Shown in pieces: positions 29,110-62,610 of a stretch of 64,000 bases of DNA; position 1 is the stretch's first letter; each line of letters opens with the position of its first letter. The notes under the pieces were generated by a model. It ran no database searches. It saw only the letters and a program-made list of their open reading frames with translations, and was not told the DNA's origin. Both the position numbers and the translations under genes were made by a program. The stretch comes from Sphingobium sp. EP60837 (lineage in GTDB: Bacteria > Pseudomonadota > Alphaproteobacteria > Sphingomonadales > Sphingomonadaceae): contig NZ_CP015986.1 in the NCBI RefSeq assembly GCF_001658005.1, positions 2,605,501 to 2,669,500 on the forward strand, in the 5' to 3' direction.

Positions 29110-29658
29110 ATGACCTTCGCGTTCGGTATATTCGCTTCGCCCGTTGGCGACCTCACCATGGTCGCGAGCGAACATGGACTGGCTGCGCTGCTGTGGGAGA
29201 ATGACGATCCCACCCGCGTCCGCTTGTCCCGAGGGAAAGAAGCGCCAACCCATCCTCTGCTCCAGGAAGCCGCCAGACAATTGCGGGAATATTTCTCCGG
29301 CCGTCTGACCAGCTTCGATCTTCCCCTCGATTTTCACGGTACGGAATTTCAGCAGAGCGTCTGGGCTGCACTGCTCCGCATCCCCTTCGGCGAGACGCGC
29401 AGCTATGGCGAGATCGCGCGGAATATCGGCCGTCCTTCGGCATCACGTGCGGTGGGCGCTGCCAATGGACGCAACCCGCTTTCCATCATTGCGCCCTGTC
29501 ACCGCGTTGTAGGATCAACCGGCGCACTAACTGGATTTGCCGGGGGCCTCGAGGTCAAGCGTCATCTGCTCGACCATGAACGGGCGGTGCTGCGGCAGGG
29601 GAGGGAGTGGCGCACCCAAGAGGATTCGAACCTCTGGCCTTTGCCTTCGGAGGGCTAA
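29110..29658 (+). CDS. ogt: Methylated-DNA-protein-cysteine S-methyltransferase, C-terminus altered at prophage junction
   Basis: A 182-residue Ogt/Ada-type alkyltransferase. The helix-turn-helix Arg finger is SRAVGAANGRNP and the acceptor Cys130 lies in PCHRVVGSTG; the active-site region GGLEVKRHLLDHE is intact. It directly repairs O6-methylguanine. A GGAGG-type site precedes ATG. The last 16 or so codons run antisense through the tRNA-Arg fragment, and the TAA (29656-29658) lies at the attL junction, so prophage integration has probably changed the tail. The core domain is complete by residue about 160, so activity may be unaffected. Confidence 0.9.
   Translation: MTFAFGIFASPVGDLTMVASEHGLAALLWENDDPTRVRLSRGKEAPTHPLLQEAARQLREYFSGRLTSFDLPLDFHGTEFQQSVWAALLRIPFGETRSYGEIARNIGRPSASRAVGAANGRNPLSIIAPCHRVVGSTGALTGFAGGLEVKRHLLDHERAVLRQGREWRTQEDSNLWPLPSEG
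29608..29656 (-). other. attL: 3' half of tRNA-Arg (CCG) left by prophage integration
   Basis: The minus strand carries the anticodon loop CTCCGAA (anticodon CCG), a variable region, the T-arm AGAGG-TTCGAAT-CCTCT, the acceptor 3' strand TGGGTGC and CCA. The sequence where the 5' half should be has neither GCACCCA nor a D-arm, so the tRNA is cut at about the anticodon stem. Since the 3' end faces the chromosome, the intact tRNA should have been rebuilt at the right end of the prophage, beyond this window. Confidence 0.8.
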
Positions 29659-50821: not shown

Positions 50822-51034
50822 TCACTTGCCCGCCTCCTTGTGCTTGCGGTAGTGAGGAGGCGACCCATCTTCTGCGACCATGTGCGCGGGGAGATCATCC
50901 CTAAGGCAATGCGGCATGTACGCTGCTTTGAACTGCCCGCACTCGCACGGCATCCAGTTCCAGCATTTCGCCACCTGAATGAACCCATCGCGACAAGTTA
51001 GGCTCTGCCGCTGGTAGGACGAACACTCACTCAT
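50822..51034 (-). CDS. Cysteine-rich small protein
   Basis: A 70-residue protein starting at 51034 on the stop of its neighbour. The first 45 residues hold five to six cysteines (SECSSYQRQSLTCRDGF, CWNWMPCECG, HCLRDDL), suggesting a metal-binding fold. The C-terminus is basic. No family recognised. Confidence 0.45.
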   Translation of the reverse strand: MSECSSYQRQSLTCRDGFIQVAKCWNWMPCECGQFKAAYMPHCLRDDLPAHMVAEDGSPPHYRKHKEAGK

Positions 51035-51198
51035 CACCGCCTCCTGATATTCCTGTGCCAGTATTCCGCTGCGTGTAGATCGACCCCCAGCCTCCGTGCG
51101 TAGGCTCCAGCATCCTTCCGGCTCCTGTCCTCCTGGAGAAGCCAGCAGATGAAACGGGTGGCAGGAGAAAGGTCGTCACGGTCGAAGAGGTCGGGCAT
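51034..51198 (-). CDS. Small hypothetical protein, 54 residues
   Basis: ATG at 51198 (MPDLFDRDDLSPATRFICWL) gives 54 codons. The second half, DAGAYARRLGVDLHAAEYWH, is helical and basic, resembling a small DNA- or RNA-binding element. Its stop overlaps the next start by one base, and the DUF6378 stop is one base upstream. The tight packing on both sides makes it likely real. Confidence 0.5.
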   Translation of the reverse strand: MPDLFDRDDLSPATRFICWLLQEDRSRKDAGAYARRLGVDLHAAEYWHRNIRRR

Positions 51199-51199
51199 G

Positions 51200-51547
51200 T
51201 CATGCGCTAAACCCGGTCAGCAGCCGGTCAGCCACGAGCTTTGCGTATCCGGCAATATCCACCCAGCTATCGGCATAGTCAGGGTCGCCATTCACGATGC
51301 GCCCCAGCTTGTGCGCGATCATCTCCAGTGCTTCGACCTGATCAGGTGCGAGGCTGGAGCGGGCGCGGCAGTCGAACAGAACGGTCTTAATGCCCTGGGT
51401 GACGGCGGCGTGCTTGTCGAAGCGTCCGTAACGGCTTCCACGCTCTTCCAAGGTAGCCGCAATGTCAGCAGGGACAGTGCCGCACGCGCCGCACGGCAAT
51501 CCCATTGGCACACCATGTGCGCAGTCGTTCGTGACCCCCTGTGTCAT
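51200..51547 (-). CDS. DUF6378 protein
   Basis: A 115-residue protein. CGACGTVPADIAATLEERGSRYGRF, then AVTQGIKTVL and LAPDQVEALEMIAHKLGRIVNGDPDYADSWVDIAGYAKLV, is the DUF6378 signature, common in phages; related all-alpha folds include nucleotide pyrophosphohydrolases. It is the first gene of the leftward operon whose promoter region holds the dyad at 51596-51613, so it is probably an early or middle gene under the prophage repressor. Confidence 0.75.
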   Translation of the reverse strand: MTQGVTNDCAHGVPMGLPCGACGTVPADIAATLEERGSRYGRFDKHAAVTQGIKTVLFDCRARSSLAPDQVEALEMIAHKLGRIVNGDPDYADSWVDIAGYAKLVADRLLTGFSA

Positions 51548-51595
51548 GCGTTACCCTCCGAGATGGTGGTGGTCATTTTGGGAAGCTCCATAATA

Positions 51596-51624
51596 GTTTC
51601 AAATATCATACTTTGGAGTTTCAG
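51596..51624 (-). promoter_or_regulatory. Operator dyad upstream of the DUF6378 operon
   Basis: AGTTTCA-AATA-TCATACT (51596-51613) is one of four copies of an 18-bp dyad in the prophage's early promoters. A further half-site AGTTTCA follows at 51618-51624. It lies about 50 bases upstream of the leftward gene start at 51547. The right half deviates from the consensus, so this may be a weaker site. Confidence 0.65.
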
Positions 51625-51681
51625 GTAGGGCCTATTTTAGAAGGCTGATTTCAGCAGGGCTTGAAGCTCGCAGCGGACAGA

Positions 51682-51846
51682 GGGGACAAGGGACACACCC
51701 TAAAGGGTGTGTGTCCTGTCCGTCCCCTCGTCAGCTTCCGCCGCATGTCCGTCCCCACCATTGTCCCTTCGACTGAAAAAATGGCTGTTTTCCGTGGTTT
51801 TTTAGGGGACAAGTTGAAATGTCCCCTCTTGTCCCTTCTTGTCCCC
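51682..51846. repeat. Cluster of GGGACA/TGTCCC motifs with two hairpins
   Basis: About ten copies of GGGAC or GTCCC occur in 165 bases, including two copies of TGTCCGTCCCC and a double TTGTCCC(TTC) at the right end. Two hairpins stand out: GGACACACCC-taaa-GGGTGTGTGTCC (51691-51716) and GGGGACA-N8-TGTCCCC (51805-51826). It abuts the 3' end of the primase-helicase gene. Iterons plus hairpins next to a primase gene suggest a replication origin or initiator site. Confidence 0.5.
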
Positions 51847-53840
51847 TAGCCATTTTTAGAGATCAGGAGGGACGAGGCCATTTGTCCGTCATTTACGACC
51901 CATCCATGTCCCTCCGGGACGATGATTTCGGCAGTCAAAAGAGCCCCGATTAGACGGTTGGGCTGACCCGGCTTTAGGGCCTGTTTTGACGCCTCTTCGC
52001 TCATGCCCATGCCTGTGACGAGATACCGCATGAGGGCTGATCGGCTGACATAGGGAGCGCCTTTTGCCTCCTCCGCGCCAGACGCATACCAAGCCGCCGA
52101 GAAGGTCTTTTTCCATGACGACAGCTTGTCGTCCTTCTTCCGCTCGATGGGGGGCTCAGCCATCACCGGGACGGCGCTGGAGACCTGCTCCCCATCCTCA
52201 TCGAGCCACCCGGCAAGCGGCACATTGTGCAATTCGACAAAGACATCCTCCGCCTCCTCGCCGTCCTTCATTTTCTTCTGCGCGATTTTGCGGAGATCCC
52301 CGACTGGGGTGACACTGATTTCTATTTCGAGCGCGCCACGCCATGCTGATGAGCCGCGAGCCCGGTGCTGGGCCTCGTCGGACACGCCAGTATGATGGAC
52401 TAGTAGGACCGAGCAGCCAAATTCCCGCATGAGCGCGCCACAGGCGTCGATCATGGTCTTGGCGTCCTGGGCGCTATTTTCATCGCCCTGGAGGAAGCGA
52501 TGCAGCGTATCGACCACGATCAGGCGAGGGAGTTCACCCAGCGCGCGGATACTATCAGAAACCCGCCTGTATCCCTCGGGTGTGTTGAGGTCGCATCCCG
52601 CCTTACTCAGCCACATGTTGAGCTTTGCAGCGCCATGGTGGACCTTCCATGCCGCCACGCGCCCCCGCAGCCCGCTATGCCCTTCACCGGCCAGATAGAC
52701 GACGCCGCCTGGCTTGATCTTGTGTCCGTTCCATTCCGGCTTTGCCGATGCGATGTGAAGGCACCAGTCGAGAACGACAAAGGTTTTGCCGCCGCCAGAC
52801 GGGCCATGCACCATGATAAGTGCCTCATCCTGAAGCCAGCGCTTGACGAGCCAGCGAATGGGCTGGGGCTGCGCGCAGAAGTCGTCCGCAGGGATTAGCC
52901 AGTCGTCTTGGGGGGGATTGAGCAGCAACGCCAGATCACCCCCAGACTGCACATAATCGTTTGCGTCCCCGCGATCGGGCGGGGTGATGACAGAGCAGCC
53001 ATATTTAGCTGATGCCTGGTCGGCATATTTCTGGCCGGTTCCGCTTTCGTCATTGTCTGCCACGATAACAATGGCGAGCGCCGGGCCATACTGCTCCCTC
53101 AGAGAGCCGACGACGGGAATGATGTTGCTGGCGCTATAGGCAAGGACGCACGGGCGGCCTGTCGCCTCGTGTATTGTGGCAGCAGTGGCGAAGCCTTCGG
53201 CCACGTAAAGGACGCCCGGCGACATGTCCCCGACCATCCAGGAACATCCGCCCGTCAAGCCACCGGCATGATAGAGCTTGCCGCCATCGTGGGCGATATA
53301 CTGGAGAGACGCCAGTTCGCCATCGGCCTTGTAAAGCGGCACCATGAGGCGCCCGTCACCTGTAACGCGAGCGCCGTTGGGCTGAACGCCCTTGCGCGCC
53401 AGATAGGGGTGATCGGCGCTGGCCGGCATCGATCGCTCCCAGATGGTCGCCACGGTATCAGCGGCGACGGCGCGGTTGCGCTCCAGTTCATGATCGCGAA
53501 TATCCCGCGCCTCACGCATCTTTCGCGCCTGCGCCATCTTTTCAGCGTCGGTGAGGTCACGCCCGAGATCCGCCCGCCACTCCTGCTTGATCCCGCTCTT
53601 CCAGCAGCCGAAACATCCAGTGGATGCGCCATCATTGTAGAAAGCAACATACCAACCTGTGTCGCCACGAGCTTTGCCGTCCGATGAAAAGCGGTGGATC
53701 CGACCGTCCATCTGGATCGAGGCTGGCGCCGATAGGCCACTTTCGCGCATCGCGTCAGCAAGTTGCGTCTCTGGTGGCTCGACATTGCGGCGCGACGGCG
53801 GCGACCATGGCCCGCCTAAAATATTGCTGAGATCGGCCAC
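51846..53840 (-). CDS. Prophage primase-helicase (TOPRIM plus RecA-like ATPase)
   Basis: A 664-residue protein. An N-terminal region with YNDGASTGCFGCW resembles a reduced zinc-binding domain. A TOPRIM domain (about 205-300) has LYVAEGFATAATIHE and IVIVADNDESGTG, with the catalytic Glu and Asp. A RepA/AAA_25 ATPase (about 330-560) has Walker A GPSGGGKT and RLIVVDTLHRFLQG. It should prime and unwind phage DNA. It follows an HTH gene by 3 bases and shares its repressed promoter. Confidence 0.85.
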   Translation of the reverse strand: MADLSNILGGPWSPPSRRNVEPPETQLADAMRESGLSAPASIQMDGRIHRFSSDGKARGDTGWYVAFYNDGASTGCFGCWKSGIKQEWRADLGRDLTDAEKMAQARKMREARDIRDHELERNRAVAADTVATIWERSMPASADHPYLARKGVQPNGARVTGDGRLMVPLYKADGELASLQYIAHDGGKLYHAGGLTGGCSWMVGDMSPGVLYVAEGFATAATIHEATGRPCVLAYSASNIIPVVGSLREQYGPALAIVIVADNDESGTGQKYADQASAKYGCSVITPPDRGDANDYVQSGGDLALLLNPPQDDWLIPADDFCAQPQPIRWLVKRWLQDEALIMVHGPSGGGKTFVVLDWCLHIASAKPEWNGHKIKPGGVVYLAGEGHSGLRGRVAAWKVHHGAAKLNMWLSKAGCDLNTPEGYRRVSDSIRALGELPRLIVVDTLHRFLQGDENSAQDAKTMIDACGALMREFGCSVLLVHHTGVSDEAQHRARGSSAWRGALEIEISVTPVGDLRKIAQKKMKDGEEAEDVFVELHNVPLAGWLDEDGEQVSSAVPVMAEPPIERKKDDKLSSWKKTFSAAWYASGAEEAKGAPYVSRSALMRYLVTGMGMSEEASKQALKPGQPNRLIGALLTAEIIVPEGHGWVVNDGQMASSLLISKNG

Positions 53841-53843
53841 GGG

Positions 53844-54014
53844 TCAGGCAGCCAGATAGTCGGAGAGAGACTTTACCGCCTTGTACGAGATGTCCGCACC
53901 CTCGCGAGCACGGCGGACGATATAATAGGATAAGCCAGTGCGCTTTGCCACCAGCTTCAAATTGCGATCTTCGAGACGTTTCCGGATGCAATCTATCGTC
54001 AACATTTCAACCAT
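53844..54014 (-). CDS. Small helix-turn-helix protein (Cro-like)
   Basis: The ATG at 54014 (MVEMLTIDCIRKRL) or 54005 gives a 56- or 53-residue protein. The pattern DRNLKLVAKRTGLSYYIVRRAREG is a helix-turn-helix as in small Cro/CI relatives. The dyad at 54027-54044 lies 13 bases upstream, so it is probably autoregulated. It is cotranscribed with the primase-helicase. Confidence 0.7.
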   Translation of the reverse strand: MVEMLTIDCIRKRLEDRNLKLVAKRTGLSYYIVRRAREGADISYKAVKSLSDYLAA

Positions 54015-54026
54015 TTCCCCAACTGG

Positions 54027-54044
54027 AGTTTGATAATTGAAACT
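54027..54044. promoter_or_regulatory. Operator dyad between HTH-primase and Sak4 operons
   Basis: AGTTTGA-TAAT-TGAAACT matches the consensus AGTTTCA-N4-TGAAACT in all but one base. It lies in the 115-base gap between two divergent early operons, close to the leftward start and 86 bases from the rightward one. A half-site, AGTTTGA, recurs at 54066-54072. Binding here could silence replication genes in both directions. Confidence 0.7.
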
Positions 54045-54129
54045 TTTATGTTGCAACGTCAACCAAGTTTGATACTCTTTCTCTCGCGCCGACACCCGGA
54101 ATGGCCCGAACGTCGGCGGGAGAATCGAT

Positions 54130-54807
54130 ATGGCTATCAACCTAAAGAGCACGTCGGGCATCTCTGCCAGTGGCGTGAAAATCCTGGCCTACGGGCAGGC
54201 GGGCGCAGGCAAGACCTCGCTGATCCCGTCGCTTCCTGATCCCATCATCTTGTCAGCGGAAGGCGGCCTGCTTTCCATTCAGGACCATGACCTGCCGTAT
54301 ATCGAGGTAGGCAGCATGGAAGCGCTGCGGGAGGCTTATGAATGGCTGTCCAGTAGTGACGAAGCAAAGCAGTTCAAGAGTGTGGCGCTCGACAGTATCA
54401 GCGAGATTGCCGAGGTCGTTCTTGCCCATGAGTTGAAGAACAACAAGGATGGGCGCGCGGCCTACGGTGAACTCAATAGCACTATGGCCGAACTAATCAG
54501 GGCCTTCCGCGATCTTCCCGACAAGCATGTCTACTTCACAGCCAAGCTGGAGAAGTCGCAGGATGAAATGGGTAAACTGCTCTACAATCCATCCATGCCT
54601 GGCAAGAGCCTGACGCAGCAACTCCCATATTTCTTCGACATCGTCTTGGCCCTGCGGGTGGAGCGGGACGGTGATGGAACCGCCCAGCGGATGCTCATGA
54701 CTGACAGCGACGGCTCATGGACCGCCAAGGCCCGCGGTGCTCGCGGCAAGCTGGACATGTGGGAAGAGCCAGATCTGGGCGTTATTATCCGGAAGCTGGC
54801 AGCATGA
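54130..54807 (+). CDS. Sak4-like RecA-fold ATPase (AAA_24)
   Basis: A 225-residue protein. GGGAGA precedes ATG by 8 bases. Walker A is GQAGAGKTS (22-30); the rest, KSVALDSISEIAEVVLAHEL and the LMTDSDGSWTAKARGARGKLD tail, fits the phage Sak4 family of single-strand annealing recombinases with a RecA-like core. It heads a six-gene rightward operon whose later genes include an SSB-like protein and a nuclease, as usual for Sak4 loci. Confidence 0.85.
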   Translation: MAINLKSTSGISASGVKILAYGQAGAGKTSLIPSLPDPIILSAEGGLLSIQDHDLPYIEVGSMEALREAYEWLSSSDEAKQFKSVALDSISEIAEVVLAHELKNNKDGRAAYGELNSTMAELIRAFRDLPDKHVYFTAKLEKSQDEMGKLLYNPSMPGKSLTQQLPYFFDIVLALRVERDGDGTAQRMLMTDSDGSWTAKARGARGKLDMWEEPDLGVIIRKLAA

Positions 54808-55184
54808 CCTGGGCGGCACAATGGCTTGAGGCCAAAGCAGCCGAGGCGGCGGCGACTGCAAAGCGCCGCTGGATCGAAGATCAGATGGCGAAGGATATGG
54901 ATCTCGCCAACGCAAAGGAAGGGTCAAGCACCCATAAGGTTGACGGCTTCGCCATCAAGATCACCACGCGGCTTAACCGCAAGATCGACGGCGACCGATT
55001 GCAGGAGCTGGCGGCTGAAAATGGGCTGTCGGATCACCTGTCCGCGCTGTTCCGGTGGAAGCCGGAGATCAACATGAGCGCATGGAAGAACGCGGCTGAC
55101 AACATCACGCGCCCCTTGTCGGCAGCCATCACCACAGAGCCGGGGCGCCCGTCTTTCGCAATCACTCCAATCGAAGAGGAATAA
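54804..55184 (+). CDS. Phage protein DUF7173-like
   Basis: A 126-residue protein overlapping the Sak4 stop by ATGA. A Lys/Ala-rich N-terminal helix (AAEAAATAKRRWIEDQMAK) is followed by KVDGFAIKITTRLNRKID and LSALFRWKPEINMSAWKNA. Proteins like this follow Sak4-like genes in many phages and are of unknown function. Role in recombination is inferred from context only. Confidence 0.6.
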   Translation: MTWAAQWLEAKAAEAAATAKRRWIEDQMAKDMDLANAKEGSSTHKVDGFAIKITTRLNRKIDGDRLQELAAENGLSDHLSALFRWKPEINMSAWKNAADNITRPLSAAITTEPGRPSFAITPIEEE

Positions 55185-55189
55185 CTATC

Positions 55190-55672
55190 ATGGCGTTTTT
55201 AGGTCAATCATACGCGGCTGACGATCTGCCGCAGGGTAACGGCTTCGATCCGCTTCCGGATGGCTGGTATGATGTCAACATCACCAAGGCGGAGGTGAAG
55301 GACACCAAGACGGGAGGCGGCGCCTATATCGCGGTCGGCTACACTGTTACCGGCCCCACACATGAGGGGCGGATTGTGTTCGGCAATCTCAACATCCGCA
55401 ACCAGAACCCTAAGGCAGAAGAGATCGGACGTCAGCAGCTTGGCGATCTGATGCGGGCCATCGGCCTCGCCAAGGTTGAGGATAGCGACCAGTTGATCGG
55501 CGGATCCTGCAAGGTGAAACTCAAGATCAAGCGGGATGAGCAATATGGGGACAAGAACGAGGTCGTCGCCTGGAAGGCTGCCGGCCTATCCATGCCCAGT
55601 GCCGCAGTCATCGCCAACAGTGCCGCAAGTAGCAACGGCGGCGGCTCGCGCCCCCCTTGGGCGAAGAACTGA
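55190..55672 (+). CDS. DUF669 protein, likely ssDNA-binding
   Basis: A 160-residue protein: FDPLPDGWYDVNITKAEVKDTKTGGGAYIAVGYTV, then GRIVFGNLNIRNQNPKAEEIGRQQL and a C-terminal flexible Ser/Gly tail. This is the DUF669 pattern, an OB-like fold linked to phage single-strand-binding function. The tail ends in basic and aromatic residues rather than the acidic tip of cellular SSB. It lies 5 bases after the previous gene. Confidence 0.8.
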   Translation: MAFLGQSYAADDLPQGNGFDPLPDGWYDVNITKAEVKDTKTGGGAYIAVGYTVTGPTHEGRIVFGNLNIRNQNPKAEEIGRQQLGDLMRAIGLAKVEDSDQLIGGSCKVKLKIKRDEQYGDKNEVVAWKAAGLSMPSAAVIANSAASSNGGGSRPPWAKN

Positions 55673-55729
55673 TGTGACCGGAGGCTGGGCTTTGTCCCAG
55701 CCCGAGGATCAAGCCAGTTTGGAGCCGCC

Positions 55730-56740
55730 ATGACCGCCATTCCAGAACCCAATCACTCCATCGCAGCCCTGATAGACGAGGCCCACGCCCAAGCTAAATC
55801 TAAGCCGCGGCCGCATTTCGGCCTGTCCATGGTCGGGCACCATTGCGAGCGATTCTTGTGGCTAAACTTCCGCTGGGCGGTGATTGAGCAGCATGAGGGG
55901 CGCATCCTTCGCCTGTTCCGGCGAGGACACCGCGAGGAAGAAACCATCCTTGCCGACCTTGTTAGAATCGGCGTCAAGGTCGTGACTACGCAGGCCAAGG
56001 TGGATTTCGGCAGTCATGTATCCGGATCTGTGGACGGCGTTCTGGAAAATGTACCGGGCGGGGGCAAGGTGCGCCACCTTGCCGAGTTCAAGACGCACAG
56101 TAAAAAGTCCTTTGATCAGTTGGCGAAGGACGGGCTGCAGAAAGCCAAGCCGATGCACTGGGCGCAGATGCAGACCTATATGCTGGGCCTGGGGTTGGAG
56201 CGCGGCCTCTATGTTGCTGTTTGCAAGGATGATGACCGGCTTCATACCGAACGCGTAAAACTGGATAGTGAGGCGGCAAAGGCCCTCGTGGAGCGGGCAC
56301 GCAGGATTGCGACAAGCGACCGCCTGCCGCCGCCCATATCGACTGACCCAACATGGTATCAGTGCCGCTTCTGCCCAGCCTATGCCTTTTGCCACCAGTC
56401 GGAGCCGACCAGGCAAGTCAATTGCCGCACATGCGCGCTATCGACGGCAAGGCCAGATAGCACGTGGCAGTGTGAGCGCTGGAAAGACGCCATTCCCGAC
56501 GACCACCAGCATGGCGGATGTTGGGGACATGTGCTGCATCCCGATCTTGTGCCGTGGGAGATGGTGCGCGGCACCGATGGGAGCGCGACCTACCTCATCG
56601 ACGGCAAGGAATATGTAAACGGCGATGATGGCCACGATAGCGGCGACCTGCTCACGCTTTGTTCCTTGGGACAGTCAGACATAGGCAAGGCGATAGCTAG
56701 GCATTTCCCAAGCGCGGAGTTGTTAGCCAATGCTTCGTGA
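55730..56740 (+). CDS. PD-(D/E)XK nuclease with Fe-S cysteines (Cas4/AddB-like)
   Basis: A 336-residue exonuclease-like protein. The nuclease core has Asp102 (VDGVLENV) and Glu119-Phe-Lys121 (AEFKTH). Cys39 (GHHCERFLW) upstream and Cys212-x2-Cys215-x5-Cys221 downstream reproduce the four-cysteine 4Fe-4S pattern of Cas4 and AddB. A second Cys/His-rich stretch follows (CRTC, CERW, HGGCWGH), probably a zinc finger. It would resect DNA ends for the Sak4 recombinase. The helicase start overlaps its stop by 11 bases. Confidence 0.85.
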   Translation: MTAIPEPNHSIAALIDEAHAQAKSKPRPHFGLSMVGHHCERFLWLNFRWAVIEQHEGRILRLFRRGHREEETILADLVRIGVKVVTTQAKVDFGSHVSGSVDGVLENVPGGGKVRHLAEFKTHSKKSFDQLAKDGLQKAKPMHWAQMQTYMLGLGLERGLYVAVCKDDDRLHTERVKLDSEAAKALVERARRIATSDRLPPPISTDPTWYQCRFCPAYAFCHQSEPTRQVNCRTCALSTARPDSTWQCERWKDAIPDDHQHGGCWGHVLHPDLVPWEMVRGTDGSATYLIDGKEYVNGDDGHDSGDLLTLCSLGQSDIGKAIARHFPSAELLANAS

Positions 56741-58316
56741 CTATCAGCAACGCAGCTTGGACATGCTCTATGACTGGTTCGCCAACAACCCGGAAGGAAA
56801 CCCCGTCCTGGTTCTGCCAACCGGCAGCGGCAAGAGTCACATCATAGCCGCCTTCTGCAAAAATGCACTGCAAAGCTGGCCCTCGACCCGCATCCTTATG
56901 CTGACCGGGCAAAAGGAACTGATCGAGCAGAATGCCGCCAAACTGCGCGAGCATTGGCCGAACGCACCGCTTGGCATCTATTCCGCCAGTGTCGGCAAGC
57001 GCCAGCTTGGCGAGCCCATCACCTTTGCCGGGATCCAGTCGGTGCGCGCCAAGGCGGACCTGCTGGGCCATATCGATATTGTGGTGGTGGATGAGTGCCA
57101 CACCATAAGCCACAAGGATCAAGGATCATATCGAACACTTCTTGCTGATCTGACGGGAATTAATCCGCACATCCGCATAGTCGGGCTGACTGCCACCAAT
57201 TACCGGCTAGGTCATGGCCTTATCACCGAAGGTGATGACGCGCTTTTTCATGCGTCGATCGAGCCGGTGACGATCGAGGAGCTGATATTCAAGGGCTACC
57301 TGGCCACGCTGCGGAGCAAGCATACGGCCCTCCAATATGACCTGTCAGCGGTCCATAAGAGGGGCGGCGAGTATATTGAAGGCGAGTTGCAGAAGGCCGT
57401 CGATACCGACGACAACAACGCCCGAGTGGCCGAAGAAGTCATTGCCTTGGCTGGCGATCGTAAGCACTGGCTATTCTTCTGCAGTGGCGTTGACCATGCG
57501 CGCCACATGGCCGACCTACTCAATCAGCGCGGCGTGAAGGCTGGCCATATCGACGGCACCTTTACCAAGGCGCAGCGTGAGGCTGTACTGGCCGACTTCA
57601 CCAGCGGACGGCTTCAGGCGCTTTGCAATTGCGCCGTCCTGACAACCGGCTTCGATTATCCAGACATCGACCTGATCGCTTTCCTGCGCCCAACTATGTC
57701 CGCAAGTCTCTATGTGCAGATGGCGGGTAGGGGGATGCGGCTTAAGTCGCACACCGATCATTGCCTTGTGCTCGACTTCGCCGGGATCGTCGAAAAGCAC
57801 GGCCCTATCACCGGTGTCAGGCCACCAAACCGGAAAGGGAAGGTGGCCGGGGAGGCGCCGGTTAAAATATGCAAGACGTGCGACGAGATCGTCCACATGT
57901 CCGTCAAGATATGTCCCACCTGCCAAACCCCATTTCCGATCAATGAAAAGCCAGATCCGTTCAAGCTGCGCAATGACGACATCATGGGGATTGAGAGTGA
58001 AAGCATCGGCGTCAGCGCGTGGCATTGGCGCAAGCATGTTTCGCGCAGCAGTGGCAAGGAAATGTTGGCTGTCACCTATTATGGCGCGCTGTCCGACCCG
58101 GCTGTCACGGAATATCTGCCGATCACCCATGACGGATATGCTGGGGACATGGCGGTCAGGAAGCTGCTCGACATAGCCGACAAGGCGGGTGTCAGCACCA
58201 ATGAGGAAGACTTAGATCGCCTGGCCGACGTGCTGAATGTCGGCACCCATCCTGCCGCCATCGACTTCAAGAAAGACGGCAAATTCTATCGCGTCCTCGG
58301 AAGGCAATGGGCATGA
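56730..58316 (+). CDS. SF2 DEAD/DEAH-type helicase with C-terminal zinc ribbon
   Basis: A 528-residue helicase. Motif I is LPTGSGKSH (29-37) and motif II is VVVDECHT. A second RecA domain ends in QMAGRGMRLK (motif VI, with the arginine finger). After it, CKTCDEIVHMSVKICPTC gives a four-cysteine zinc ribbon, and the C-terminal 130 residues are specific to phage XPB/UvsW-like enzymes. It may unwind recombination or origin intermediates. Confidence 0.88.
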   Translation: MLRDYQQRSLDMLYDWFANNPEGNPVLVLPTGSGKSHIIAAFCKNALQSWPSTRILMLTGQKELIEQNAAKLREHWPNAPLGIYSASVGKRQLGEPITFAGIQSVRAKADLLGHIDIVVVDECHTISHKDQGSYRTLLADLTGINPHIRIVGLTATNYRLGHGLITEGDDALFHASIEPVTIEELIFKGYLATLRSKHTALQYDLSAVHKRGGEYIEGELQKAVDTDDNNARVAEEVIALAGDRKHWLFFCSGVDHARHMADLLNQRGVKAGHIDGTFTKAQREAVLADFTSGRLQALCNCAVLTTGFDYPDIDLIAFLRPTMSASLYVQMAGRGMRLKSHTDHCLVLDFAGIVEKHGPITGVRPPNRKGKVAGEAPVKICKTCDEIVHMSVKICPTCQTPFPINEKPDPFKLRNDDIMGIESESIGVSAWHWRKHVSRSSGKEMLAVTYYGALSDPAVTEYLPITHDGYAGDMAVRKLLDIADKAGVSTNEEDLDRLADVLNVGTHPAAIDFKKDGKFYRVLGRQWA

Positions 58317-58492
58317 GATATAAAGAACCGGAAGCCGTCACCGCTTGGCGCAAGGGGCCTCCCGCATGCTGCCACACGTGCGAGCATTACGCTGTGGACG
58401 GTAAATGCGTGTTCCATTGGGCTGAACCGCCAGAGGATTTTGCTGCCATGACGAACGCCTGCGCCGACTGGAAGCAGGAGACGCCCTTTTAG
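58313..58492 (+). CDS. Small Cys-rich protein
   Basis: A 59-residue protein whose ATG overlaps the helicase stop (ATGA). The cysteines ACCHTCEHY, GKCVF and NACADW suggest a metal site of four ligands. It ends 4 bases past the start of the convergent VRR-NUC stop. No family is recognised, but the pattern recurs in phage early operons. Confidence 0.55.
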   Translation: MRYKEPEAVTAWRKGPPACCHTCEHYAVDGKCVFHWAEPPEDFAAMTNACADWKQETPF

Positions 58493-58845
58493 ACCAGCGG
58501 CGTCACCTTCTCCTGCGCGTCCAGAGAACCTTTGGCTACAATCACCCTGTCGCCAATCTCCCGCAGATAGGCGTGCCAGTCCCTTTGGTCTTCGCTGACG
58601 ACGCCGCCTTTCTGGCGCTTCATCTCCACCCACGTTCGCCAGGCCGGGATATAGAGATCCGGTACGCCGCGCGAGACGCCTTCTATTACCAGACGATGCG
58701 CCTCCACCTTGCTACGCTCGCCGCCGTTTGGAATCGCGAAGATGCGCACTCCAGGATAGGTGCGCCGAAACCAGCGGACGAAATCGCGCTGCTCCTCATG
58801 CTCGGTCGGCATCCGGTTGGCTGGCAATTTCCATATGGCGTTCAT
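58489..58845 (-). CDS. VRR-NUC domain nuclease
   Basis: A 118-residue protein from ATG at 58845. The fold has EEQRDFVRWFRRTYPGVRIFAIPNGG, then GVPDLYIP and TWVEMKR, giving the PD-(D/E)XK residues Asp and Glu-x-Lys of the VRR-NUC family. Stand-alone phage versions are likely structure-specific or replication-repair nucleases. It overlaps its upstream neighbour by ATGA. Confidence 0.85.
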   Translation of the reverse strand: MNAIWKLPANRMPTEHEEQRDFVRWFRRTYPGVRIFAIPNGGERSKVEAHRLVIEGVSRGVPDLYIPAWRTWVEMKRQKGGVVSEDQRDWHAYLREIGDRVIVAKGSLDAQEKVTPLV

Positions 58846-59060
58846 GCTGCCATCTCCAGGCGATAGCCCCGACATTCCGGGCCCTGTTCATCCGTGGCGA
58901 TGTGGACGCCCTTGGAGCGCATCAGATTGATGTGGACCCGCACATTGTTGACATGCTTGCCGGGCATAACGCAGTCGCGAATGGTGCGGGCGTTGAGGTG
59001 CCGGCCCTTGGCTGCGACCAGCAGGTCAAGTATCTTCGCTTCGGTGGGGGTGAGCCTCAT
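58842..59060 (-). CDS. Small winged-helix protein
   Basis: A 72-residue protein starting at 59060 on the previous stop (ATGA). LTPTEAKILDLLVAAKGRHLN and VNNVRVHINLMRSKGVHIAT match an OmpR-type winged helix (the RPAL-like HINLMRSKG turn), with no receiver domain. It probably binds DNA. It sits second-last in a four-gene leftward string. Confidence 0.65.
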   Translation of the reverse strand: MRLTPTEAKILDLLVAAKGRHLNARTIRDCVMPGKHVNNVRVHINLMRSKGVHIATDEQGPECRGYRLEMAA

Positions 59061-59389
59061 GCGTAAGCCCTCCATGCCGGAATGCGGGCACTGGTGGTCA
59101 GGACGCCAGCGCTATGCTCCGCGCAGTTCCGAGCGCCGCAGCGCGGGCAGGTGTAGCTTTCCACCCGCGCAGGCTCCTGTGTCGGTTCTTCCAAAACTGT
59201 CATCGTGCGGAAGTTGTGATTACCGCCCAATTTGATCGCGCCCTTTGCCCGCAGCATCGAAACAGTGCGGTTGAAGGTTGTCTGCGTCAGTCCGCAGATG
59301 CGGCTATCAGTGACGCCCGAGATATGTTCACCCTGGCGACGGCGGATATAGGTGAGGACGATGCGCTCGCGGTCGGTGAGGTCGATCAT
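59057..59389 (-). CDS. Winged-helix protein with zinc ribbon
   Basis: A 110-residue protein. Residues 1-65 form a MarR-like winged helix (LTDRERIVLTYIRRRQGEHI, FNRTVSMLRAKGAIKLGG). A zinc ribbon, CPRCGARNCAEH, follows at about 80-91. Two DNA-binding modules in such a small protein suggest a phage transcription regulator. It overlaps both neighbours by 4 bases. Confidence 0.65.
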   Translation of the reverse strand: MIDLTDRERIVLTYIRRRQGEHISGVTDSRICGLTQTTFNRTVSMLRAKGAIKLGGNHNFRTMTVLEEPTQEPARVESYTCPRCGARNCAEHSAGVLTTSARIPAWRAYA

Positions 59390-59865
59390 TCTGCGTCCCC
59401 ATGACTCGAATAGGGAATGAAGGTGGCAATCAGTGTGTCGGCGGCATCGCGGACAGCCGGGCCTTCAACATGGTCGATCCGATCATCCACAGCCGCCTGC
59501 GCGAACACATTGAGTGCCCCCATGGCTTTCACCATATCCCTCATCGGATGAGCCTCGTCGGCCTCATCCAGCGGCTTGGCGCCGCCGTAGCCGATCAGAG
59601 ATAGAAGCCGGTTGATGGCATCGGTGCCCAACACGGTTGCGAGCGAAAGCGCGACGGACAGGCTAGGCTGACGCGCCTCCCCTTCATCCATCGCCATATA
59701 GGAGCGTATGGCACGGACCTTAACGCCAGATAGAGCTGAAAGCTCGTCTACCGAGAAACGACGTTCGATGATGACAGCGTTGCGGAGCAGGGGGCGAAGC
59801 GTCTCTATAACGCGATTGCGAGAAACGATCCCGCTTTCTTCCACTGCGTTGTTACGGTCCTGCAT
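59386..59865 (-). CDS. Helix-turn-helix regulator, phage-type
   Basis: A 159-residue protein. FSVDELSALSGVKVRAIRSYMAMDEGEARQPSLSVALSLATVLG carries an HTH with a bend typical of phage activators. The C-terminal 70 residues are a separate helical domain (AMGALNVFAQAAVDDRI). It heads the small regulator string 59865-58489. A CII- or Cro-type role is possible. Confidence 0.65.
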   Translation of the reverse strand: MQDRNNAVEESGIVSRNRVIETLRPLLRNAVIIERRFSVDELSALSGVKVRAIRSYMAMDEGEARQPSLSVALSLATVLGTDAINRLLSLIGYGGAKPLDEADEAHPMRDMVKAMGALNVFAQAAVDDRIDHVEGPAVRDAADTLIATFIPYSSHGDAE

Positions 59866-59869
59866 CTAT

Positions 59870-60070
59870 TCAGGCTCCATGAGAAAGGGAATGAAGATCA
59901 TCGACTACCTGCTCAGCGTCACGCGACCCGGCGCTGAGAAGGCAAACTGCGGGGCTGGCCATGTTGCTGGCCCCGGCCTTGTGCTTCAGGCCGCTAGCCA
60001 CAGCGCCAAGAAACAGGCCAAGGGCGAGCGATCCAGAAAACCAACCGAGAAGGATGCCCCCGGCCAGCAT
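59870..60070 (-). CDS. Small membrane protein
   Basis: A 66-residue protein with one or two hydrophobic segments (LAGGILLGWFSGSLALGLFLGAVAS). Its start directly follows the stop of a possible 22-codon Arg-rich ORF at 60071-60139, which is too short to call. Function unknown. Confidence 0.45.
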   Translation of the reverse strand: MLAGGILLGWFSGSLALGLFLGAVASGLKHKAGASNMASPAVCLLSAGSRDAEQVVDDLHSLSHGA

Positions 60071-60195
60071 TCAGTCCTCCATCAAGCGACGGATCCGGGC
60101 GGGGCGGTTGCGGCGAGAGAGCCACCAGAGGCGAGCCATGCTTGCCCAATAGGTGAGGGTAGCGAGTGGCTGGACTCGCTGGGTCCTGATGCGCG

Positions 60196-60465
60196 TCACG
60201 CGCCCGCCGCCTTATCGCTTCCGGCATACCCCTTTTTAGCGCCTTTACGGCCAACACAATTGCAAGCAGACTTCTCAGCCTGGGCTAGTGCGCGCTCCAC
60301 CTTTTGCTGCGTTGCCCAGTTCGGCTTGTTCTTGCCGTGGACCAAGCGGATTACAGAGGAGCGGGAAATACCCGCTACAGCCGCGAAGTCCGGGTATGTC
60401 ATCCCGAACCGTTTTAGCGCAGCGCCAAGGGTTTTTGGGTTATGCCAGTCAATCATATCCGCCAT
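60196..60465 (-). CDS. Cro-like helix-turn-helix repressor
   Basis: An 89-residue protein starting at 60465 (MADMIDWHNPKTLG). ALKRFGMTYPDFAAVAGISRSSVIRLVHGKNKP is a clear HTH of the XRE type, and the C-terminus is basic. The near-perfect dyad lies 4 bases upstream of the start, so it probably represses itself. It is divergent from the larger HTH gene, giving a lambda-like two-regulator arrangement. Confidence 0.75.
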   Translation of the reverse strand: MADMIDWHNPKTLGAALKRFGMTYPDFAAVAGISRSSVIRLVHGKNKPNWATQQKVERALAQAEKSACNCVGRKGAKKGYAGSDKAAGA

Positions 60466-60468
60466 GGT

Positions 60469-60486
60469 AGTTTCATATCTGAAACT
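60469..60486. promoter_or_regulatory. Perfect operator dyad between divergent repressor genes
   Basis: AGTTTCA-TATC-TGAAACT is a perfect inverted repeat of 7-base arms and the best copy of the prophage operator. It lies 4 bases upstream of the leftward HTH start and 49 bases upstream of the rightward one. On the minus strand the shared block GAAGTTTCAGATATGA recurs at the 61314 site. Confidence 0.75.
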
Positions 60487-60534
60487 TCGCAAGGCACATT
60501 GATGGGCCTAACCGAATTTTTTAGGGGGCTCTAG

Positions 60535-61050
60535 ATGTTTCCCGACGAAAACAATCAAAACATCGGGGAAGAAGTGCGCGCCAAGGAAAAGAAGGAGCAC
60601 CGCGACGAGATTGCGGCGTGGCTCAAGGGGGTATTGGATAACAATACGGACCTAAAGGCGACAGCATGGTCCGTGGCAGCTGGGTTGAGCCGCAGCACCG
60701 TTAGCCGTGCGCTGAATCCGAAATATGACAACATCCTGTCTATCGTCGCGCTATACAAACTGGCCAAAAAGGCAGGTGTTCCCACACCTGTTCATCTCGG
60801 GATCGGCGCGCCTGGTGTACCGCCACCAATAGCCCTGGCGGCCATATTTCGCGGCATCCTGTCGCGCCTCACCCCCGAGCGCACTTGGTCCGAGGATGTG
60901 TTGATGGCGCTGGGTGAAGCGCTGCAACTGTCTCTGGTGGAAGCTCAGGAAACGCCGGAAATTGCAGAAGATTTGCAGGCGGCTGAGCTGGTTGGCCGCA
61001 TGGCGGCACGACGCCTCTCTGGTCGAGAAAATAATCCAGATGAGACATAA
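60535..61050 (+). CDS. Prophage repressor (helix-turn-helix)
   Basis: A 171-residue protein. AGGGGG precedes ATG by about 6 bases. The N-terminal 75 residues form an HTH (KATAWSVAAGLSRSTVSRALNPKYDN). The rest is Pro-rich then helical (ALAAIFRGILSRLTPERTW, LGEALQLSLVEAQE) and would be for dimerisation. There is no S24 peptidase motif, so it would not be cleaved by RecA as lambda CI is. It is the best candidate for the lysogeny repressor. Confidence 0.7.
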   Translation: MFPDENNQNIGEEVRAKEKKEHRDEIAAWLKGVLDNNTDLKATAWSVAAGLSRSTVSRALNPKYDNILSIVALYKLAKKAGVPTPVHLGIGAPGVPPPIALAAIFRGILSRLTPERTWSEDVLMALGEALQLSLVEAQETPEIAEDLQAAELVGRMAARRLSGRENNPDET

Positions 61051-61100
61051 ACCTATCGACGAATAACATGTAAAACCCCGCTGCTGAGAATCGCAGTATG

Positions 61101-61129
61101 TTCCCTTTCCGTTCGTGTAGGAAAGGGAA
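61101..61129. other. Perfect 10-bp hairpin
   Basis: TTCCCTTTCC pairs exactly with GGAAAGGGAA around a 9-base loop. Neither strand has a following T-run, so it is not a canonical terminator. It lies 50 bases past the repressor stop, inside the 340-base gap (61051-61390) that otherwise holds an operator and promoter sequence. Confidence 0.6.
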
Positions 61130-61313
61130 AAATGAACGCGCCCGCGTCTCCCCACGCTGGCGCGATTCCCCTACTGCATCCTCCACTTATCGGCACTCAT
61201 AGCGCCGCCTATCATTTACCACCCGTGAACCCGGATGCTTAACCCACTGGCAACTGCCTTTAGGGTTCGTCGCTGTTTGCGCAATAAAAAGTTTCACGAA
61301 TGGTATTGACTGA

Positions 61314-61331
61314 AGTTTCAGATATGATACT
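61314..61331 (+). promoter_or_regulatory. Operator dyad upstream of the right early operon
   Basis: AGTTTCA-GATA-TGATACT differs from the perfect dyad by one base. TTGACT lies just before it at 61306-61311, and a second half-site, AGTTTCA, is at 61290-61296, giving a tandem arrangement with 24-base spacing. The first gene starts about 60 bases downstream, so binding should block this promoter. Confidence 0.7.
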
Positions 61332-61390
61332 TCTAGCTCCATCAGGCCGCTCACCAGCGGCAGCAGATCACCCCGGCTTTAGCCGTACTG

Positions 61391-61645
61391 ATGGAGATGA
61401 CAGTGCAGATTATCACCCCCGACCAGCGCCCCGCCAAGCTGAACAAGGCTAATGCACGCGATGTAGCGAAGGCGCGCGCCGCCCTGGCGATGGGTGAAGG
61501 CGGCATCTACGCCCGCAGCCTTTCCGCGATCCACCGCTCTTCGTCGGCTCAGCAGCAGCGTGAAGTCGAATGGGCGATTGCCGCTGATGGCGCGCAGCAC
61601 CTGTTCGCCCGTCACCCTAACACTGGCGCGCTGGTCGCCGCCTGA
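61391..61645 (+). CDS. Small hypothetical early protein
   Basis: An 84-residue protein; the start may be ATG at 61391 or GTG at 61403, which is better spaced from GGAG. It has a Lys/Ala-rich N-terminal helix (KLNKANARDVAKARAALAMG) and a second helix (SSAQQQREVEWAIAADGA). First gene of the right early operon. No family recognised. Confidence 0.5.
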   Translation: MEMTVQIITPDQRPAKLNKANARDVAKARAALAMGEGGIYARSLSAIHRSSSAQQQREVEWAIAADGAQHLFARHPNTGALVAA

Positions 61646-61712
61646 CCTGCCCGGAGCGCGGATCACCCCTCCGCGCCGAGGATCAGATCAGTTTCAGCAT
61701 GGAGTTCAACCC

Positions 61713-62078
61713 ATGACCACAACAACAAAAACAGCGCATACGCCGGGGCCTTGGGAAGCTCGCATGTCTGCGCGGCGCACCCATTTCAAGATACTGCATT
61801 CAGCGCGCGGTAAAGGCGATGGCTACAATAATCGCGTCGCCGAAACTTGTCAGTGGTCGCCCGCAGCCGGGCCGCAAATCGACCCGACCGAAGCTGCGGC
61901 CAATGCGCACCTGATGGCATCTGCGCCTGATATGCTCGATGCGCTTCTCGCCATCCGGAAGATCCTCGGCGGCATCGCCGATCACAAGAAGGCTGATCCT
62001 GATGATGCGCTGGCGGCCCTGCTTGCCATGAAGCTCATTGATGTGACCGCCGCCAAAGCAACGGGCGGTGCAGCATGA
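61713..62078 (+). CDS. Hypothetical early phage protein
   Basis: A 121-residue protein: HTPGPWEARMSARRTHFKIL, then PTEAAANAHLMASAPDMLDALLAI. The 'HTPGPWe ... AnAhLmaaAPdlLeaL' form is shared by many short phage proteins of unknown function. It overlaps the next gene by ATGA. Confidence 0.6.
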   Translation: MTTTTKTAHTPGPWEARMSARRTHFKILHSARGKGDGYNNRVAETCQWSPAAGPQIDPTEAAANAHLMASAPDMLDALLAIRKILGGIADHKKADPDDALAALLAMKLIDVTAAKATGGAA

Positions 62079-62305
62079 GCAATCAGGTCCACCATGGCTT
62101 TGACGCCGACACCGAATATTTCGAGTTCGGCGCATACCGGGCGGAGATCAGCTTCAAGCACCGCTTCTGCGACACTCTGCACTGGCAGATGAAGCATTGG
62201 GGCCGGGGCGACGGCGATATCGCCAACGGTTCTATCCATCGTTTCCCCACCATCCACGCTGCCCGCCATGCGGCTGAGCAGTGGGTCATGAGAGGTGCAG
62301 CATGA
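62075..62305 (+). CDS. Hypothetical early phage protein
   Basis: A 76-residue protein rich in His and aromatic residues (VHHGFDADTEYFEFGAYRAEI, RFCDTLHWQMKHWGRG). No family recognised. It overlaps both neighbours by 4 bases, so the run 61713-63661 is one coupled set. Confidence 0.5.
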   Translation: MSNQVHHGFDADTEYFEFGAYRAEISFKHRFCDTLHWQMKHWGRGDGDIANGSIHRFPTIHAARHAAEQWVMRGAA

Positions 62306-62610
62306 ACACTTTGACGCAAGCCGACCGCGACACGCTCATTGCGGCCGAACAAATCCTGGTCCGCGCTCTGAAGCATGACAGCGAAGTCCTCATGTTCAGC
62401 CTGCACGGGCGGTGGGAGGCAATGTCTGCCACCTATTTCACGCCAAGCGAAAAGCAGCACAGCTTTTTGAGTGGCGTCACACTGGCCGACAAGATCGACG
62501 AGTGCCTTGCCATCCGCGCCGATGAAGAAGGCCGGGCAGACGAGATCAGGGCCGAACGCGTCGAGCGCCTGCGCCAGGAACTGGCTTCGCTCACCGGACA
62601 AGCGGCATGA
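62302..62610 (+). CDS. Hypothetical early phage protein
   Basis: A 102-residue, mostly helical protein (TQADRDTLIAAEQILVRAL, RADEEGRADEIRAERVERL) starting at 62302. The C-terminal 40 residues are a long charged helix. Coupled by ATGA on both sides. No family recognised. Confidence 0.5.
   Translation: MNTLTQADRDTLIAAEQILVRALKHDSEVLMFSLHGRWEAMSATYFTPSEKQHSFLSGVTLADKIDECLAIRADEEGRADEIRAERVERLRQELASLTGQAA

Follow-up and report, generated by a model that had tools for sequence, protein, structure and literature searches.

Operator-like dyads of a probable CI/Cro-type immunity switch at dispersed early control regions of a Sphingobium prophage

Introduction

What does a palindromic sequence do when it recurs, mostly as one strong copy at a time, before several early transcription units of a prophage, and which protein reads it? 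This question is raised by a 64,000-nucleotide stretch of the genome of Sphingobium sp. EP60837 (contig NZ_CP015986.1, called C1 below, positions 2,605,501 to 2,669,500 of the forward strand), hereafter the window, which contains prophage early genes and a divergent pair of genes for helix-turn-helix (HTH) proteins. The element in question is an 18-bp dyad, AGTTTCA-N4-TGAAACT, with 7-bp arms and a 4-bp spacer (7-4-7). The original prediction, made from the sequence alone, was that one repressor, probably one of the two HTH proteins, controls every early transcript from scattered single operators rather than from a cluster of the lambda type. The analysis reported here indicates that the four dyads, with a degenerate fifth, are probably the operators of a CI/Cro-type immunity switch. 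Sequence comparison lends good support to the action of a single regulator pair at more than one early promoter, and the dyads may control every early transcript.

Dyads in the early region

The perfect dyad AGTTTCATATCTGAAACT (60469-60486, no mismatch to the pattern) lies in the intergenic gap from which the CI-like and Cro-like genes diverge. Two dyads have one mismatch: AGTTTGATAATTGAAACT (54027-54044), between leftward HTH and primase genes and the rightward gene of a Sak4-like annealing protein, and AGTTTCAGATATGATACT (61314-61331), before rightward genes that begin at 61391 and continue past the window toward an integrase. The fourth, AGTTTCAAATATCATACT (51595-51612, two mismatches), precedes a leftward DUF6378 gene with its start codon at 51547. 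A degenerate dyad with three mismatches, AGTTTCACGAATGGTATT (61290-61307), lies 24 bp before the 61314 dyad and overlaps the word TTGACT (61306-61311). No strand is assigned to any of these symmetric sites. A pattern scan recovered the four dyads first reported, three at the exact positions and the first beginning at 51595 rather than 51596. Each lies, as had been proposed, in a gap before an early gene (4/4), in a region (51000-62500) of which about 11% is non-coding according to a hand-made gene list.

The window holds six matches at up to three mismatches, against a mean of 0.86 and a maximum of 5 in 100 shuffles; the sixth (15587, three mismatches) lies outside the prophage. Recovery of sites in the window is unsurprising, because the pattern was derived from it; the informative part is the other 99% of the genome, which contains no dyad at up to two mismatches. 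The whole genome (4,261,696 bases, 4 contigs) has 50 matches at up to three mismatches, one with none, two with one, one with two and 46 with three. The first four are exactly the reported dyads, and one of the 46 (61290) falls in the prophage. At the same threshold the control, the reversed pattern, has 44 matches, about equal to the 46 three-mismatch sites, and only the strong sites therefore exceed background. The prophage makes up 0.95% of the genome (40,659 bp), and the chance of all four dyads lying inside it is 8e-9, a figure computed after the fact. The original prediction had proposed a genome scan, in which an equal density outside the prophage would speak against it. No such density is seen: sites at up to two mismatches occur in the prophage only, and within the same scan its late region and C1:1-6134 have none. 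With a matrix built from the eight arms, the four dyads score 25.6, 24.3, 24.2 and 22.9 bits in the window; as they are training sites, only the step beneath them is informative, and this amounts to about 7 bits, the next matches being 61290 (15.9 bits) and 15587 (13.9 bits).

The four gaps are AT-rich (42-49% G+C over 119 bp, compared with 61% in the window), as would be expected if the dyads were chance likenesses of AT-rich promoter spacers. The shuffle and genome controls, the 7-bit step and the parallel dyads in homologous immunity regions described below all argue against this explanation, the probability of which is close to nil. Host regulator sites (FNR/CRP-like, or of a stress regulon) captured by the prophage could also give such a set, and the 54027 dyad holds a TTGAT-like sequence, which we take to resemble an FNR half-site. 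A host regulon should have host sites, but none is found at up to two mismatches elsewhere in the 4.26 Mb. Across 94 genomes of the genus, matches at up to one mismatch are present in ten, three in the genome itself and one in each of nine others, and none of the 93 other genomes has a cluster of them, making a host origin extremely improbable.

Candidate regulators and their relatives

The genes flanking the perfect dyad have the divergent layout of a CI/Cro-type pair, and encode in these putative roles a 171-aa CI-like repressor candidate (60535-61050, + strand) and an 89-aa Cro-like HTH protein (60196-60465, - strand). The 171-aa protein gives weak HTH matches (LacI 0.0065, HTH_3 0.046) and no Peptidase_S24 match at E up to 0.1. 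Among its close relatives, the recognition region reads RSTVSRA or RNTVGRA. The start of the 89-aa protein may be at 60456, because its relatives begin at a MID/MIN motif, and a longer TTG-start frame reaches 60492. Its predicted structure is of low confidence (predicted local distance difference test, pLDDT, 69.5; predicted template modelling score, pTM, 0.53). Sequence searches against solved structures returned mostly generic HTH regulators with weak E-values.

It is conceivable that the dyads are bound by the Cro-like protein only, with the 171-aa protein acting elsewhere or in some other way. The Cro-like start codon at 60465 has the perfect dyad 4-21 bp upstream of it, as autoregulation would have it, and the HTH matches of the Cro-like protein are the clearer ones (HTH_3, E 4.4e-4; phrog_18104, E 1.2e-5). 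In CI/Cro systems, by contrast, the same operators are read by both proteins, which counts against this explanation and leaves it unlikely. Comparison with the related loci L101, L121 and L122 cannot separate the two binders, because both members of the pair and the dyad all differ there from those of the window.

Direct searches with either regulator found the genome itself alone among 249 genomes of the family and no relatives in viral contigs or genome contigs, and an A1 search likewise found it alone among 385 genomes of the class. The 171-aa protein has no match in phage or plasmid collections (tblastn, E up to 1e-5 for phages), and the L101 protein is also unmatched in a direct collection search. 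Nine whole genomes contain distant relatives of the 171-aa protein: two of the same genus (G667 and G654), three from as many other genera (G027, G067 and G1076), and four of one further genus (G170, G024, G216 and G109). They come from an all-genus A1 search (3/94 genomes), a family A3 search (8/397) and an order A4 search (5/396), each including the genome itself; two further searches re-found single genomes, in genera represented by one genome each. Homologous divergent pairs occur in L101 (G667), L121 (G027) and L122. Identity between the 171-aa protein and the L101 protein is 30% over 136 aa (E 5e-15, a single comparison), and that with the HTH of the L121 protein is 32% over 59 aa; the Cro-like protein is 35% identical to its L121 counterpart over 52 aa.

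The repressor relative in L121 (L121:1495-2166) has a Peptidase_S24 domain (PF00717, E 1.9e-15), and no S24 match was found in the repressor proteins of the window, L101, L122 or L134, which suggests that the domain has been lost or replaced within one immunity family. The single viral-contig match of the L121 protein (L129) covers the peptidase half only. This S24-bearing relative is also matched (26.6% over 97%) by the CI-like repressor of Rhodobacter phage RC1 and Rhodovulum phage RS1, which represent another phage type, because a transposase lies near the repressor.

Dyads in homologous immunity regions

In three of the relatives (G667, G027 and G067), 18-bp 7-4-7 dyads with the core TGCA-N4-TGCA are found in the equivalent divergent gap. 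These same-geometry dyads beside homologous pairs bear out the earlier choice of the divergent HTH pair as the candidate regulators. The exact core occurs five times in L101, four times in L121 and three times in L122 (overlapping registers counted), compared with means of 0.09, 0.05 and 0.065 and maxima of 2, 1 and 1, respectively, in 200 shuffles. The 18-bp geometry and the inner CA-N4-TG are kept across the genomes, whereas the outer arm bases and the HTH regions of both regulators are changed; the arm in L101, for example, is AACTGCA.

Regions of about 20 kb (L116, L142 and L143) contain gap sites 21-23 bp apart and a second pair of sites exactly 33 bp apart, 0.9-2.9 kb from the divergent gap. 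The gap sites are 14541/14563 in L116, 10102/10125 in L143 and 10636/10657/10680 in L142 (a run of three with a weak middle site), and the corresponding 33-bp pairs are 13574/13607, 11719/11752 and 7765/7798. In all three cases, the 33-bp pair brackets the -35-like word GTTGACC, with the downstream dyad at the would-be spacer and -10 region. Seven sites from L101, L121 and L122 served to train a TGCA matrix; the L142 pair 7765/7798 (21.3 and 20.1 bits), which lies outside this training set, takes the first and third places in its 20-kb region. The regulator locus of G667 holds the sole exact ACTGCA-N4-TGCAGT site of that genome, two of its four one-mismatch sites and, among the matches listed, one two-mismatch site; at up to two mismatches the genome has 80 such sites, against 67 for the control.

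Single sites or pairs

Half-sites had also been noted next to three of the dyads, and these are confirmed at 51617 (reported as 51618), 54066 and 61290. The 51595 dyad has an exact extra arm AGTTTCA 22 bp away (51617-51623, + strand). The 54027 dyad has a weak neighbour at 54059-54076, in which the right arm TGATACT (54070-54076, in a 32-bp register) overlaps a left-arm-like AGTTTGA at 54066 (39-bp register). An arm of such quality lies within 45 bp of about 1% of random window positions. The third case is the degenerate dyad 61290, 24 bp upstream of 61314; the two bracket a -35-like word in the arrangement AGTTTCACGAATGGTA-TTGACT-GA-AGTTTCAGATATGATACT, with the stronger dyad downstream, and resemble, in degenerate form, the operator pair found around a -35-like word in the three relatives.

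The description as single operators without clustering accordingly fits 60469, near which no partner arm or dyad is found, and does not fit the 61290/61314 pair or the extra arms at 51595 and 54027; with a partial partner at three of the four dyads, the scattered single-operator picture needs qualification. The window has at most a pair with one degenerate member, and not the triple of adjacent operators of the right operator (OR) of lambda.

Several observations weigh against reading the dyads as operators of a CI/Cro-type switch. Apart from the partnerless 60469 dyad, these include the pair spacing, which is 24 bp in the window and 33 bp in the relatives, and the promoter-like hexamers, which show no excess in 51000-62500 (6 versus 4.9 expected). 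Some gap sites are weak (L116 14541, 13.3 bits; L143 10125, 13.4 bits; L142 10657, 11.8 bits), while unrelated sites in the same stretches score 12.1-12.8 bits, one of 12.7 bits exceeding L142 10657. The comparison of arms is confined to distant relatives, as the nine close relatives of the 171-aa protein (69-89% identical) are known as proteins alone, and clear recurrent dyads occur in three of the nine relative loci only (those of G667, G027 and G067). The G1076 gap has a dyad, ATCCTCA-TAAA-TGAGGCT, that is unrepeated nearby, two more sites at 1-2 mismatches lying elsewhere in its genome. No recurrent dyad appeared in G654, G170, G024, G216 or G109 with the scans made: four arm patterns gave none in 20 kb of G654, where the TGCA matrix has one lone 14.1-bit match; the exact TGCA core gave none in L123 and L124; and a noisy palindrome scan showed none among the matches listed for L123, L124, L125 and L126. 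That generic scan for recurring palindromes is too noisy in AT-rich loci, and the targeted scans were relied on. The five relatives without a dyad and the unrepeated G1076 site count against a simple rule for the whole family.

The Sak4/primase module

The 54027 dyad stands between two divergent sets of genes. On the - strand are a 56-aa HTH protein (phrog_18104; 53844-54014) and, behind it, a Toprim/AAA primase-helicase (51846-53840); on the + strand, the Sak4-like annealing protein (54130-54807) is the first of the rightward replication and recombination genes. The DUF6378 gene behind the 51595 dyad (51200-51547) is also on the - strand.

The 56-aa protein could itself be the regulator of all sites, given that the 54027 dyad lies 13-30 bp before its gene start, and that an HTH gene has the equivalent place beside primase and Sak4 elsewhere: annotations of Salicola phage CGphi29, Idiomarinaceae phage 1N2-2 and Alteromonas phage PB15 show the divergent layout, and a 56-aa HTH gene lies upstream in part of the Sak4 viral contigs, among the matches listed. 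Against this, the loci with a Sak4 relative (80 of at least 595 viral contigs found) nearly lack the dyad: their 769,657 bases contain two sites at up to two mismatches. These 80 loci provide 46 distinct gaps upstream of Sak4, in which 7-4-7 dyads occur at the level expected by chance from mononucleotide shuffles (6 versus 4.7), whereas several longer gap lengths, from 11 bp up, are in excess (gap 13, 18 versus 3.9; gap 15, 21 versus 5.2; gap 17, 14 versus 4.8), which fits a different operator for the 56-aa protein. Regulation of all sites by this protein is thus very unlikely. Because the window dyad is nearly absent from the Sak4 loci and 7-4-7 dyads are at chance there, the 54027 site would belong to the immunity system of this prophage rather than to the module.

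The long-gap dyads often take the form CTTTACA...TGTAAAG, for example CTTTACA-N15-TGTAAAG, and are perhaps the sites read by the family of small HTH proteins encoded next to the primase. CTTTACA-N15-17-TGTAAAG and its variants span promoters before Sak4 in L021-L067 and others.

A further observation in the same gap is a covarying RNA hairpin in the Sak4 leader (54087-54118, + strand), just upstream of the gene start, with an outer stem, a 3+3 internal loop, a 3-bp inner stem and a 5-6-nt loop. In an alignment of 27 sequences, from the window and 26 loci, standard pairs make up 94.9% of pair cells. This percentage is biased upward, because the sequences were hand-picked from leaders that already showed the hairpin, with poor ones (among them L098, L100 and L103-L105) excluded; covariation is 0.697, compared with 0.08-0.14 for slid versions. 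The resulting model gives the window site, itself a training sequence, 23.6 bits. Applied to 57 related loci, three of which (L018-L020) belong to the training set and many of the rest of which are near-duplicates, it gives 48 hits immediately upstream of Sak4, a single weak hit at another place and, in nine of the 57, no hit at Sak4. The hairpin is unmatched by Rfam in the window and in seven loci, and a literature search for a Sak4 leader RNA found none; it may serve to control translation of the annealing protein.

Prophage setting

The prophage extends over about 40.7 kb, from attL (29636-29655, + strand) to attR (C1:6115-6134), the same 20-bp repeat, which lies beyond the window across the end of the contig and inside tRNA-Arg(CCG). 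Contig C1 ends 160 bp beyond the window. The prophage genes resume at the start of this contig, with a Rad52/Erf-like annealing protein (C1:44-751) and, later, a phage integrase (C1:4947-6017), and the contig is therefore read as circular. The prophage has two different annealing proteins, the Sak4-like one (54130-54807) and the Rad52/Erf-like one (L115:44-751). The immunity block contains a third HTH gene (159 aa, 59386-59865, - strand), homologues of which adjoin the regulator pair in L142 (44%) and L134 (34%).

Comparison with known systems and implications

The arrangement adds a further example to a familiar class of viral on/off switches. As in lambda CI/Cro immunity, divergent CI-like and Cro-like HTH genes share a gap with a palindromic operator-like site, and a further operator-like pair is found at another promoter-like place in the three relatives. 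By sequence, the window has a symmetric operator-like site in the divergent gap and a second set elsewhere (61290/61314, 54027 and 51595). It differs from lambda in that the repressor candidate has no S24 match, and in that 18-bp 7-4-7 sites are spread over four places in about 9.7 kb, mostly with one strong dyad each. Dispersed operators are also known from phage P1, where the single repressor C1 acts at several transcription units through many scattered, asymmetric 17-bp sites; here, the sites are symmetric 18-bp dyads. A study of the mycobacteriophage L5 clade describes its stoperators as 13-bp asymmetric sites, up to 30 per genome and mostly not promoter-associated (PMC6550527). The L5 system resembles the present one in combining one repressor with dispersed sites, and in the variation of cognate sites among phages with different repressors (PMC6550527); it differs as far as described there, since the window has four to five symmetric 18-bp dyads, all in gaps before early genes. 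Searches of the literature on sphingomonad prophage operators and CI repressors found nothing on this system.

In the proposed switch, a dimer of the 171-aa protein would bind the 18-bp dyad, each subunit contacting one 7-bp arm. Four early control regions would thereby be closed to RNA polymerase in the lysogen: 60469 in the gap shared with the divergent Cro-like gene, 61290/61314 before the rightward genes, 54027 in the primase/Sak4 gap and 51595 before the DUF6378 gene. The Cro-like protein probably recognizes these dyads as well, reinforcing the lytic state. As no S24 domain is found in the 171-aa protein, induction probably proceeds without RecA-stimulated self-cleavage. A more tentative extension, which we regard as possible though somewhat doubtful, is that this peptidase-less CI-like repressor silences the prophage through operators dispersed over all its early control regions, one of which has been grafted onto a borrowed Sak4/primase module. 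The relatives of the module in other phages would use a different, long-gap dyad, and the phage would have re-wired the module by gaining its own immunity operator there.

These dyads supply a repressor-operator code that can be tested, in a prophage family with a 171-aa repressor unmatched in phage and plasmid collections. The window's genome and the three relatives form a natural series of four: regulators and arms vary together, and the 18-bp geometry and the place around a -35-like word are retained. If the grafting of the 54027 operator is true, it would show a mosaic phage bringing an imported replication module under its own immunity.

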